Shown here one piece after another: positions 40,484 through 64,000 of a stretch of 64,000 bases of DNA (the stretch's first letter is position 1; each line of letters starts with the position of its first letter). The DNA comes from a candidate division WOR-3 bacterium (GTDB lineage: Bacteria > Hydrothermota > Tepidihabitantia > Tepidihabitantales > Tepidihabitantaceae), in the NCBI GenBank assembly GCA_013177935.1, contig JABLXZ010000004.1, positions 248,001 through 312,000 on the forward strand, read 5' to 3'. The notes beneath the pieces are model-generated. The model was not told where the DNA came from and made no database searches. It saw nothing but the letters and a program-made list of their open reading frames with translations. The translations under genes were made by a program, and so were the position numbers.

Positions 40484-43366
40484 CTACTGCAACTGGCGCA
40501 ACAGCTGTTCGGCATTGAAGTCGCTGGGATGCCGGCGCAGCCAGTCTGATAGCAAAGCCCGGGCTTTGTCAACGCTGTGCATATCCTCAACATAGAACCG
40601 GTACAGGAGTTGAACCAGTTGCCACTCATTCGGTGCCAGCGCCAGCGCCTGGAGGTACATCTTTTCCGCCTCCGGGTAGTTGCCCATCGCCTGGCTGATG
40701 AAACCGCGCTGGAGGAACAGTTCCAGTCGCAGTCGTGGCTCATCACCCGCGTATCTTTGTGCCGAGTCAATCGCCGTCAGCGCAACCTCATACTGACGAT
40801 TGAGCGCTGCATAGCGGGATAAATGGTAAAACAGCAGCATCTTCTGGGTCGGTTCCAGTTCAAACTTAAGCGCGGGCATAAGCGCCTGCTGCGCCGCCTG
40901 ATTGTCCCCAGCCCGGGCATAGGCGTTGGCAAGCAGAAGGTGGCTATGGGCATAGGTCGTAAACAACCCGCGGGTATTTTCGTCCTTTTCCACCCTCGGG
41001 TCGAGCATCGACTTCAACTTAAACTTCTCGGTCAAAAGTACCCGGGTACGCAGTGTATCAACCATCTCCTCATCCGGTATCGAACTGCGTTCCGCCACAA
41101 CCCGGCGCACCAAACCTTCCAGCCGGAGATAAGGCTCACAATCAACCGTATTGTCCGGTGATACCGTTGTCGCAAAGTAAACCGGGCTCTTGGGATTGTA
41201 ACCCGGACCAAACACCTTCGCCATAAACTGCTCAGAAGGAGCTTCGTAGTCTTCGGGCCATTTCAGTTTTATGCCCCCGGCGGTCGCGATGATATTGCGA
41301 ATCATTATGTCCTTCAGCAGGACGGTGCGGTTGTTTCGGGCAACATAACCCAGGGGTAGCCGCTCAATCTCCTCTTCGGTAAAGGAAATCGGTGCGCCCC
41401 ACCTTTTAAGTTGTTTGCAAAACCACGGCGTATTCAACAGCGAAAGGTTGGCAACCGCCACATTCTTTCCGAAATTGGGGTCGTTGTTTGCCACGAGCGA
41501 CGGCACGGTTTGCATAAACCACAAAGGGAAGGTGTCGTTGTCACCATTGGTAAACAGTACCGCCTTCTCCCCTTCACAGCAGACCAGCATATTGTAACCG
41601 TACTCCGCCGGTATCCAGTTGTGACGCCGTGTTACCCCTTTGTAATTCAGGAACATCGGCACAAACCCGAAACCCAAAACCAGTCCCGCAATCACCGGCA
41701 TCGGCACCGCTACCCGTCGGGTTTTAAGTTCCTGGTCAACCCACTTCATAAAGGCGTAAACCCCGGTGCCGATAAAAATCGTGTAAAACACAAACGAAAA
41801 GGCAAAAAAGTAGTCCCGTTCGCGCACCTCCCGGAACCTCAATTCCGGTCGCGGGTCTGAAGGTGAAAACTTCAGATTCAAATAGGTCAAAAGTCCGATT
41901 GATGCCACAATAAAGGCAACAAAGATTAAGGCAAACGACTTTTTGTCCCGTTTAAACTGGTGCCACATTCCCCAGAGTCCAAGGAGCGGCGGTATCAACC
42001 CTAATATCCCCTGCCAGCCCAGACGGAGAAAGATGCGCGGGATGTTTGTAATCAAAACATCAAGGTACCTTTCGTTACCCCACTGCCAGAGAAAGTAGCG
42101 GATGTAGAAGGCGACCTGCTCAATATAGGCGCGGAGCAGCCCGAACGCCGGATTCTGATTCCGGCGCCAATCATCCTCGGTGTAGAACTGGGTCTTGCGC
42201 GGCAAAAGCCGCATCGGGTCGTACTGCTCCCGCTTCAAAACCGAGACAAAGTCGCGCCAGCGGGTCGGCTCAACTTCGTTGATGCTCGGGTAGTGCCGGG
42301 CGCGAATCAGCATAATGAACTGAACCGTGCCAGCAAGGAGTACCAGCCCGAGCAAAAGCCCAACATAACGGGGTTGCAATTTCTTTTTGGTATGCAGCCA
42401 GTACAGATAGCCGGCAAAAGCGACAACAAAGGCAACAAGCAGCGCCGGTGACTTAACCCAGCGCTCAATCAGGGCAACGGTGGGCGATGCTAGGAAGAGC
42501 ACGACATCGTCCATAATCTTCTGTCCGGCACCAATCCAGGCAACCAGGAAAACCAGTGCCAAAAGCCCCAGCCCATAGATGAGCGACACATTGCGCTCTG
42601 AACGCTCCATTATCCGAATCGCATAGTAGGTGCCCACCAGCATCAAAGGAACCACGATGAAGGTGCCCGCAGACAGACCCAGTTCATTGACGGTCAGAAT
42701 CAAAAGATAACCAACCGCAAACTCAATGAACCGCAGATGAATCACCGCCTGGCGGTCAACTAACAGCGCAAACACCAGCACCGCAAACACGACAAGCATC
42801 GGCGTGAAATGGATTCCGGTCGCAACAAAAAGGAGAAAGATGGCAGCAAGAATCTGACGGTTGTCACCGGTTTTGTTCTCCCTGCCCTCGCGCCAGACCA
42901 GCGCCATATAAAGCACCGAGAGGGCAATGACCACGCAGGGACCGTAAACTTCGGCTTCAACACAGTTGTCCCAGTAGGAGTAGCCAAAACCGCACATCAA
43001 AGCGGCAAATATCCCGGCGATGTGGGGCAGATACCAGCGCCGGTTCTTCTCCTCAGCGCTGTGCTGGGAAAGCAACCGGACAACAATCAAATAGAGTAAC
43101 CCGCACGAGAAGGCGCCAAACAGAGTCGGTATCAAATTCACCCGGAAGGCGATTTCCTTGCCAATGGGCAAAAGGGTGAAAATCCTTCCCAGCATCACAA
43201 AAAGCGGTGTGCCTGGTGGATGGGGAATACCGGCGATATAAGAAACCGCAATCAGTTCCGCACAGTCCCAGAACGATGCGGTTGGCGCCACGCTGTAAAG
43301 GTAAACCGCCAGGACGGTCAGAAAAATCGCAACAAAGAAAATCAGTCGCCATCGTGATTCATTCAT
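40484..43366 (-). CDS. DUF2723 membrane glycosyltransferase-like protein with TPRs
   Basis: 960 residues. The N-terminus (YLYSVAPTASFWDCAELIAV, then IAGIPHPPGTPLFVMLGRIF) is the hallmark of DUF2723, related to PMT-type transferases and proposed to act as protein O-mannosyltransferases in Bacteroidetes-like bacteria. About a dozen membrane helices fill residues 1-560. A soluble C-terminal half ends in TPRs (about 810-950, FLQRGFISQAMGNYPEAEKM). It probably glycosylates exported proteins from lipid-linked sugar. Starts 3 bp after cdaA. Confidence 0.85.
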   Translation of the reverse strand: MNESRWRLIFFVAIFLTVLAVYLYSVAPTASFWDCAELIAVSYIAGIPHPPGTPLFVMLGRIFTLLPIGKEIAFRVNLIPTLFGAFSCGLLYLIVVRLLSQHSAEEKNRRWYLPHIAGIFAALMCGFGYSYWDNCVEAEVYGPCVVIALSVLYMALVWREGRENKTGDNRQILAAIFLLFVATGIHFTPMLVVFAVLVFALLVDRQAVIHLRFIEFAVGYLLILTVNELGLSAGTFIVVPLMLVGTYYAIRIMERSERNVSLIYGLGLLALVFLVAWIGAGQKIMDDVVLFLASPTVALIERWVKSPALLVAFVVAFAGYLYWLHTKKKLQPRYVGLLLGLVLLAGTVQFIMLIRARHYPSINEVEPTRWRDFVSVLKREQYDPMRLLPRKTQFYTEDDWRRNQNPAFGLLRAYIEQVAFYIRYFLWQWGNERYLDVLITNIPRIFLRLGWQGILGLIPPLLGLWGMWHQFKRDKKSFALIFVAFIVASIGLLTYLNLKFSPSDPRPELRFREVRERDYFFAFSFVFYTIFIGTGVYAFMKWVDQELKTRRVAVPMPVIAGLVLGFGFVPMFLNYKGVTRRHNWIPAEYGYNMLVCCEGEKAVLFTNGDNDTFPLWFMQTVPSLVANNDPNFGKNVAVANLSLLNTPWFCKQLKRWGAPISFTEEEIERLPLGYVARNNRTVLLKDIMIRNIIATAGGIKLKWPEDYEAPSEQFMAKVFGPGYNPKSPVYFATTVSPDNTVDCEPYLRLEGLVRRVVAERSSIPDEEMVDTLRTRVLLTEKFKLKSMLDPRVEKDENTRGLFTTYAHSHLLLANAYARAGDNQAAQQALMPALKFELEPTQKMLLFYHLSRYAALNRQYEVALTAIDSAQRYAGDEPRLRLELFLQRGFISQAMGNYPEAEKMYLQALALAPNEWQLVQLLYRFYVEDMHSVDKARALLSDWLRRHPSDFNAEQLLRQLQ

Positions 43367-63231: not shown

Positions 63232-64000
63232 ATGCGTTTTACTGTCTGTATGCTTATCCTCGCTCTTGTGTCGGGCATCGGTCTAAGCCAGGAACTACTA
63301 ATCAATGGCAACTTTGAACAGGAGTTGTCTGTTGGCTGGACTTATACCGATAGCGGCCTCGGCACCCATCAGGTACTGCGCGGCACCGAATATCAACCGG
63401 ACCCGGACTACGAAGCCTGGGTTTATCAGTACGACAACCCGGGCTGGACCCGTTTAAGTCAAAAGGTCGATGTCCCTGGTGTCGCCCTGAACCTCTCATT
63501 CTGGGCAAAGTTTGCCCAAAGCGGTGGCACATCAACCTGCTGGCCCGCCGCCTGCTTTCAGGTATGCTACTACGATATCAACGACAACCGCCTGGGTGAA
63601 ACCCGCTACTACTACTCCACCTACGCCACCTGGACACCAACCCCGACATTGAGTCTCTACCGCATCACCAATCCGGACTGGAACCAGTACGAGTTAAACA
63701 TTGCTGATGAACTTGCCGCCAATCTACCCGGTGTCAACCCGGATGATATTGCCAAAGTCGAGGTTGCGCTCTGGAGTTACACCTATTCGGGCTGAGGCAC
63801 TCCAGTGGCGGAGGTCTCCGCCGATGATATTTCCTTAATTAACTACAATCAGGGTCCCTACATTCTGCTCAGTACCAGAACCGTTCTCGACTCACCTCCG
63901 GGCGGCAACAACAATGGCAGATTTGACCCGGGTGAAACCGGCGGCTTGATTGTTGCCCTGCGCAACATCGGTAATCAGGGTGTGGACAATGTCAGTGCCA
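63232..64000 (+). CDS. secreted beta-rich protein with an in-frame TGA; runs past the window edge
   Basis: Signal peptide about 1-19 (ending GIGLSQ). Residues about 20-185 form a carbohydrate-binding-like beta-sandwich (LLINGNFEQELSVGWTY). At codon 188 the frame meets TGA (63793-63795), then stays open for 68 more codons to the window end. The continuation (GTPVAEVSADDISLINYNQG, then NNNGRFDPGETGGLIVALRN) is the natural end of that domain and the start of a CARDB-like domain. So the TGA is not a true gene end: it is a nonsense change, a sequencing error, or recoded. TGA is a normal stop in neighbouring genes. A hairpin placed like a bacterial SECIS follows. Confidence 0.75.
63793..63822 (+). 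promoter_or_regulatory. SECIS-like hairpin after in-frame TGA
   Basis: TGA at 63793-63795, an 11-nt gap, then GGCGG-AGGTCT-CCGCC (63807-63822). The apical hexamer AGGUCU and the 11-nt spacing are the same as in the E. coli fdhF SECIS. It lacks the bulged U of that element. The hairpin also encodes plausible conserved residues, so it could be chance. Confidence 0.45.

Follow-up and report, generated by a model that had tools for sequence, protein, structure and literature searches.

The in-frame UGA codon of an exported β-sandwich protein encoded by a candidate division WOR-3 bacterium almost certainly inserts selenocysteine (Sec), judging from sequence comparison. The codon lies near the end of the window, the stretch of 64,000 nucleotides analysed here (G000:C4:248001-312000 of a 1.96 Mb genome). 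A selenoprotein had been proposed in an initial annotation of this DNA, and the proposal has held up: the codon is conserved across homologues, the hairpin behind it covaries and the genome encodes the Sec machinery. Taken as a whole, the best explanation, to which we assign a probability of roughly 0.8, is a selenoprotein of an apparently undescribed family whose Sec would serve as a selenol/thiol redox centre at the cell surface. For redox chemistry as the role of Sec, considered by itself, the odds are about even.

A gene that continues past UGA

The initial annotation let the frame run through TGA for 68 further codons. The frame is indeed open and in frame with the start codon, and it extends much further than the window shows: more than 450 codons follow the TGA before the frame ends beyond the window (L007:5158). 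The gene thus continues for about 1,160 bases past the window, to about C4:313157, and comprises 641 codons when UGA is counted as Sec. The read-through product begins with a signal peptide, followed by the sandwich domain, a middle region and a type A sorting domain of the type IX secretion system (T9SS); the features within the window are collected in Table 1. In profile searches the sorting domain scored 31.9 bits against TIGR04183 (cut-off 23) and 29.7 against PF13860 (cut-off 27). The window protein thereby carries the C-terminal domain that marks T9SS type A cargo, and its tail passes the curated cut-off of these proteins, unlike the short members of the family, which have no tail. Comparison with five relatives gave dN/dS values of 0.07-0.13 before the UGA and 0.10-0.15 after it, the latter over about 450 codons. 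The gene is flanked by rtcB/uvrC and a queH-like gene, names assigned by reading the sequences, and does not lie in a cluster of sel and Omp28-like genes.

Table 1. Features of the putative selenoprotein gene in the window
Feature	Position	Strand	Remarks
Putative selenoprotein gene, part in the window	63232..64000	+	ATG at 63232 to window end; in-frame TGA at 63793-63795
Predicted signal peptide, ~19 residues, MRFTVCMLILALVSGIGLS	63232..63288	+	Read from the translation; homologues also start with a hydrophobic leader
Predicted Sec-containing β-sandwich domain, CBM-like jelly roll, ~190 residues	63289..63867	+	AlphaFold2, Foldseek
Cys103 (TCWP), candidate redox partner for Sec188 in the clade that lacks a C-U pair	63538..63540	+	Alternation with neighbouring Cys (see text)
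UGA, probable Sec codon, residue 188	63793..63795	+	UGA in the same column of homologues; selA, selB, selC and selD present
Spacer from UGA to outermost stem pair	63796..63806	+	Measured to the Ala codon, 12 nt here and 12, 15, 18 or 21 nt in homologues
Probable SECIS hairpin	63807..63822	+	Stem 63807-63812 with 63817-63822; apical loop GGUC 63813-63816; five inner pairs conserved
Start of C-terminal region	63868..64000	+	Ends past the window as T9SS type A sorting domain, residues 566-639

Conservation of the UGA codon

With the read-through domain as query, a first search returned about 95 homologues from 100 relatives, the most distant at about 33% identity. Of those extending to the site, nearly all have a frame that is open except for a single in-frame UGA. 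Reading the DNA base by base initially covered 93 distinct sites; more distant and short forms behave alike. In total, UGA stands at the site in 114 of the 115 distinct homologues that cover it, from WOR-3, Eisenbacteria and Thermoanaerobaculales. The family is present in 50 of the 147 genomes searched in the phylum, with no further non-UGA member among those covering the site, and a search of Eisenbacteria yielded four members with both UGA and hairpin. Short members that have no sorting tail, some of which resemble lipoproteins, also keep the two elements.

The distribution was also surveyed by scanning the DNA of a genome collection of 84,980 species for the hairpin word. Family members were recovered from WOR-3/Stahlbacteria, two bins labelled 'Cloacimonadota', Eisenbacteria and Thermoanaerobaculales, and each of them that holds the site has UGA just upstream. 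Unrelated chance matches, mostly in high-GC genomes, lack a UGA at the equivalent position, and viral contigs scanned for the pattern gave one chance match.

Cys homologues aligned to the Sec, a usual though not obligatory mark of a selenoprotein, were not found in this family, apart from one possible case. This is the sole member without UGA (L110:2110-2712, minus strand), which reads TSCPPPF and whose DNA, GTCAGAGTCCTGGCG, still permits a similar stem; it may have lost Sec and become a Cys form that retains a SECIS relic.

The hairpin behind the codon

The initial annotation had also noted a SECIS-like hairpin shortly after the TGA. Its letters are G63807-GCGGA63812 and TCCGC63821-C63822 around a GGTC loop, giving a stem of 5-6 bp that starts 11-12 nt past the UGA. 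In common with the bacterial consensus and the SECIS of E. coli fdhF, it has a GC stem with a small GGU-holding loop within 16-37 nt of the UGA, and its A-GGUC-U apex is also that of fdhF. It differs from the fdhF element in its shorter stem and in having no bulged U, and the protein is unrelated to formate dehydrogenase. The missing bulged U had been held against a SECIS, an objection that falls away, as one is not required by the published consensus for bacteria. The hairpin lies inside the published limits for bacterial SECIS elements, namely a loop of 3-9 nt, a stem of 4-16 bp, a G within the first two loop positions and 16-37 nt from UGA to the apical loop (PMC13188914).

On its own the window hairpin stands out only moderately (z -2.4, equalled by 7 of 200 shuffles), and chance should produce the strict pattern of UGA plus hairpin about 0.3 times in a random sequence of 64 kb. 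The proof rests on the conserved UGA and on covarying stems. The family consensus is GCn-xx-[A/G]GU[C/U]-yy-nGC, 12-21 nt behind the UGA and inside the codons of A-x-V-y-A, and all five stem pairs are formed in each of the 113 members scored. When the 3' codon was shuffled among members, the three variable pairs were kept at a mean of 86% and a maximum of 89%. The covariation score was 0.556 compared with 0.185 after shuffling, a value reached in none of 500 shuffles, with 24 double-change cells; several positions show all four Watson-Crick pairs, G-C, A-U, U-A and C-G. The peptides encoded by the hairpin include AKVFA, AEVSA, ARVLA, AQVCA and AWVYA, in which the residue pairs K-F, E-S, R-L, Q-C and W-Y follow base pairing and not chemistry. 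At least 14 changes of this residue pair have occurred on the tree, and every extant state is still paired. Here, the structure of an RNA dictates amino acids of a protein domain. A chance combination of UGA and hairpin is excluded.

A covariance model built from the family hairpin found only two confident matches in the window's own genome, both in family genes; the second gene (L107, G000:C1:117130-117846) has the motif NCUG and the same hairpin. Elsewhere in the window, a UGA at 41429-41433 on the minus strand is followed by a hairpin CCTGA-AGTT-TCAGG, which fits a loose version of the pattern and is probably due to chance.

Selenocysteine machinery

All four genes that the initial annotation had proposed to look for are present in the genome: selB (C3:104567, 383 bits), selA (C3:174650, 568 bits), selC (74 bits, anticodon UCA) and selD, the last in two copies. 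One selD (L011:1501-2409; G000:C3:106492) adjoins selB and itself has an in-frame UGA at the Sec site of SelD ('CAGU'); the other (C2:440593) has no UGA and adjoins a Cys form of an Omp28-like protein. A search of the same genome for PF01314 gave no match.

A UGA member and selA occur together in 44 of the 100 relatives and are both absent from 39; 12 have selA only, and five have a UGA member but no full selA. Fisher's test for this co-occurrence gives p 7e-12 when kinship among the genomes is ignored. Of those five genomes, selB is above the cut-off in three and partial in two, the latter two being fragmented assemblies. The two genomes tested from Eisenbacteria and Thermoanaerobaculales have selA, and genomes without Sec machinery contain no gene of the family and no Cys forms of it. 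In two genomes the selA match is split in two inside a single long open frame, possibly owing to an insert in the protein (G023:C59:75237-76658, 497 aa; G027:C107:2815-4281, 513 aa).

Other readings of the codon

One objection is that the UGA is a mutated or miscalled TGG, CGA or GGA, that is, a pseudogene or an artefact. The gene has a single in-frame stop that is one base away from Trp, Arg or Gly codons, and the initial annotation had noted that a change from TGG or CGA would account for it as well. The homologues do not bear this out: they carry UGA in the same column and none has Trp, Arg or Gly there, the hairpin is conserved and the region downstream is under purifying selection. A base-call error is untenable because there are 114 independent homologues, some from single-contig genomes, and we consider this objection to have a negligible chance of being right. 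An equally negligible chance attaches to a recoded genetic code in which UGA stands for an ordinary amino acid throughout the lineage. Any recoding would give an open frame through UGA, but UGA terminates 7 of the 36 long open reading frames in the window, the gene has a single UGA column with a hairpin directly after it, and the genome encodes the full Sec machinery. Pseudogene, sequencing error and genome-wide recoding are thus ruled out by the homologues, the dN/dS values and the UGA-terminated frames.

A hairpin might also promote readthrough with a normal residue, yielding a short secreted and a long anchored form by programmed leaky termination. A stop codon with a stem-loop behind it is a known arrangement for readthrough, and in long members the UGA lies between most of the sandwich and the sorting tail. 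However, the codon precedes the end of the sandwich by about 20 residues, so that stopping there would remove the last strand as assigned by DSSP; members without a tail retain both UGA and hairpin, the hairpin fits the bacterial SECIS model and the family tracks selA. Leaky termination is therefore very improbable, and insertion of Sec remains the preferred reading of the codon.

Fold and possible role of the Sec domain

AlphaFold2 predicts the window domain as a β-sandwich with a mean pLDDT of 94.9 and a pTM of 0.90 (pLDDT 95.8 for a second member), and in the model Sec188 is located in the loop that connects the final two strands assigned by DSSP. The predicted structure has the jelly-roll β-sandwich of carbohydrate-binding modules (CBMs), and Foldseek retrieved CBM11, CBM16, CBM61 and related sandwiches from the PDB. 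Identity to CBM4_9, CBM11, CBM16 and CBM61 amounts to 13-18%. No Pfam or NCBIfam family passed in profile searches with the Sec domain, a sequence search of the PDB gave one weak match only, and the window domain did not reach the curated cut-off of CBM_4_9, to which 5 of 42 members showed weak matches. The 2026 inventory (PMC13188914) gives no Sec for any of these CBMs, and we do not claim that the window domain binds sugars.

The absence of a nearby redox cysteine had been raised against a selenoprotein. This is correct for the residues beside Sec in the window protein but not for the family, more than half of which (63-64 of about 115 members) has a Cys directly before Sec, forming a C-U pair. 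Other clades have G-U, T-U, D-U or S-U at this place and carry a Cys before a conserved Trp, which is Cys103 in the window protein, or in CPW, and in most members a further Cys occupies one of a small set of positions. The Cys at alignment position 96, corresponding to Cys103, alternates with the adjacent Cys when all rows are counted (Fisher p 2.6e-9). We dropped this alternation as evidence for a partner: it reflects few evolutionary events and is unsupported once ancestry is considered.

The expected course of events starts from established knowledge: SelB with Sec-tRNA would bind the hairpin, Sec would be inserted at the UGA, and the protein is predicted to be exported by its signal peptide and T9SS-type tail. 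Sec would be exposed on a loop of the sandwich, whose fold is of the carbohydrate-binding type, and could then form a selenol/thiol redox centre at the cell surface. It might be resolved by the adjacent Cys in C-U members and possibly by Cys103 or the Cys of CPW in others, perhaps in cooperation with exported UxxC Omp28-like proteins and a TlpA-like thioredoxin that cluster with the family in other genomes. Against a redox centre stand the fold, which is that of a binding module, the lack of any catalytic motif known from redox enzymes and the inconstant partner Cys.

Binding of a soft metal or an organometal is the main functional rival because the C-U motif is common to SaoL, SaoC, HgcA and MbdU. 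In these proteins of other families Cys and Sec are likewise adjacent; they serve mostly in organometal biochemistry, SaoL being MerB-like and MbdU metal-binding (PMC13188914). A binding-type fold and a Sec that is hardly ever replaced by Cys would suit a ligand, but C-U is confined to part of the family and the genes found nearby are of thioredoxin type, which leaves this role unlikely though serious. We judge it improbable that the Sec forms a structural selenylsulfide stapling the last hairpin of the sandwich. The modelled position of Sec in the loop joining the last two strands would allow such a staple, disulfides are frequent in exported proteins and most members do have another Cys; a plain disulfide would serve equally well, however, and the near-absence of Cys forms would stay unexplained. 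Compared with both of these roles, a surface selenol/thiol redox centre remains our preferred proposal.

Probable selenoproteins around selA and selB

Although the window gene stands apart, five other genomes have a family gene near selA, and near selB where covered (G055, G057, G051, G023 and G039; L227, L228, L229, L230 and L232). These sel clusters also encode exported proteins with in-frame UGA, namely Omp28-like UxxC proteins with T9SS domains and Omp28-like UxxC lipoproteins, and in several there is also a thioredoxin resembling ResA/TlpA, as well as a DUF6029 protein. In the T9SS group the UGAs are followed by hairpins such as CCAGYGGUACRCUGG. The Omp28-like proteins match the NCBI model 'Omp28-related selenoprotein' (NF045500, hypothetical protein GOS_C) below its cut-off. 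This is an outer-membrane-family selenoprotein whose distant relatives adjoin the sandwich family; its members are UxxC proteins of the Omp28 family and show no sequence relation to the β-sandwich.

Two further observations concern other proteins. In the sel cluster of G057 an exported Ig-like T9SS protein (L228:5712-6440, minus strand) has UGA within 'WCIGGSUSPPGV', and homologues without UGA and with Cys nearby occur in the window's own genome beside selD (L010) and in L237; this looks like another selenoprotein family, one with Cys forms. An Eisenbacteria contig (L151, minus strand, about 3388) encodes a peroxiredoxin-like selenoprotein, 'TFVUPTE' followed by a hairpin, from a known family.

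Implications

Exported selenoproteins as such are already known. The 2026 catalogue of 119 prokaryotic selenoprotein families does not include the sandwich family, which matches none of its entries by domain (PMC13188914). The literature searched contained no bacterial T9SS selenoprotein and nothing relevant on selenoproteins of WOR-3 or on carbohydrate-binding proteins of candidate phyla. Within the collections and open-access literature covered, the family is apparently undescribed, and it would add at least 114 members, spread phylum-wide and beyond, with Sec on a binding fold for which none had been listed and in exported proteins. Since the family is nearly without Cys forms, methods that rely on Cys/Sec pairs would tend to discard it, a limit that the deep-Sep authors state themselves (PMC12013277). 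Standard gene calling, in turn, truncates every member at the UGA.

A recent genome survey of these uncultured bacteria makes no mention of selenium (PMC12542636). The findings point to a selenium redox system at their cell surface, whose proposed members are the β-sandwich family, the UxxC Omp28-like T9SS proteins and lipoproteins, and the Ig-like UGA protein, encoded beside selA-selB, a TlpA-like thioredoxin and DUF6029. We tentatively suggest, at slightly less than even odds, that WOR-3 bacteria and their relatives run a dedicated surface selenol system of this kind, in which the sandwich family would be lost together with the Sec trait and not converted to Cys.
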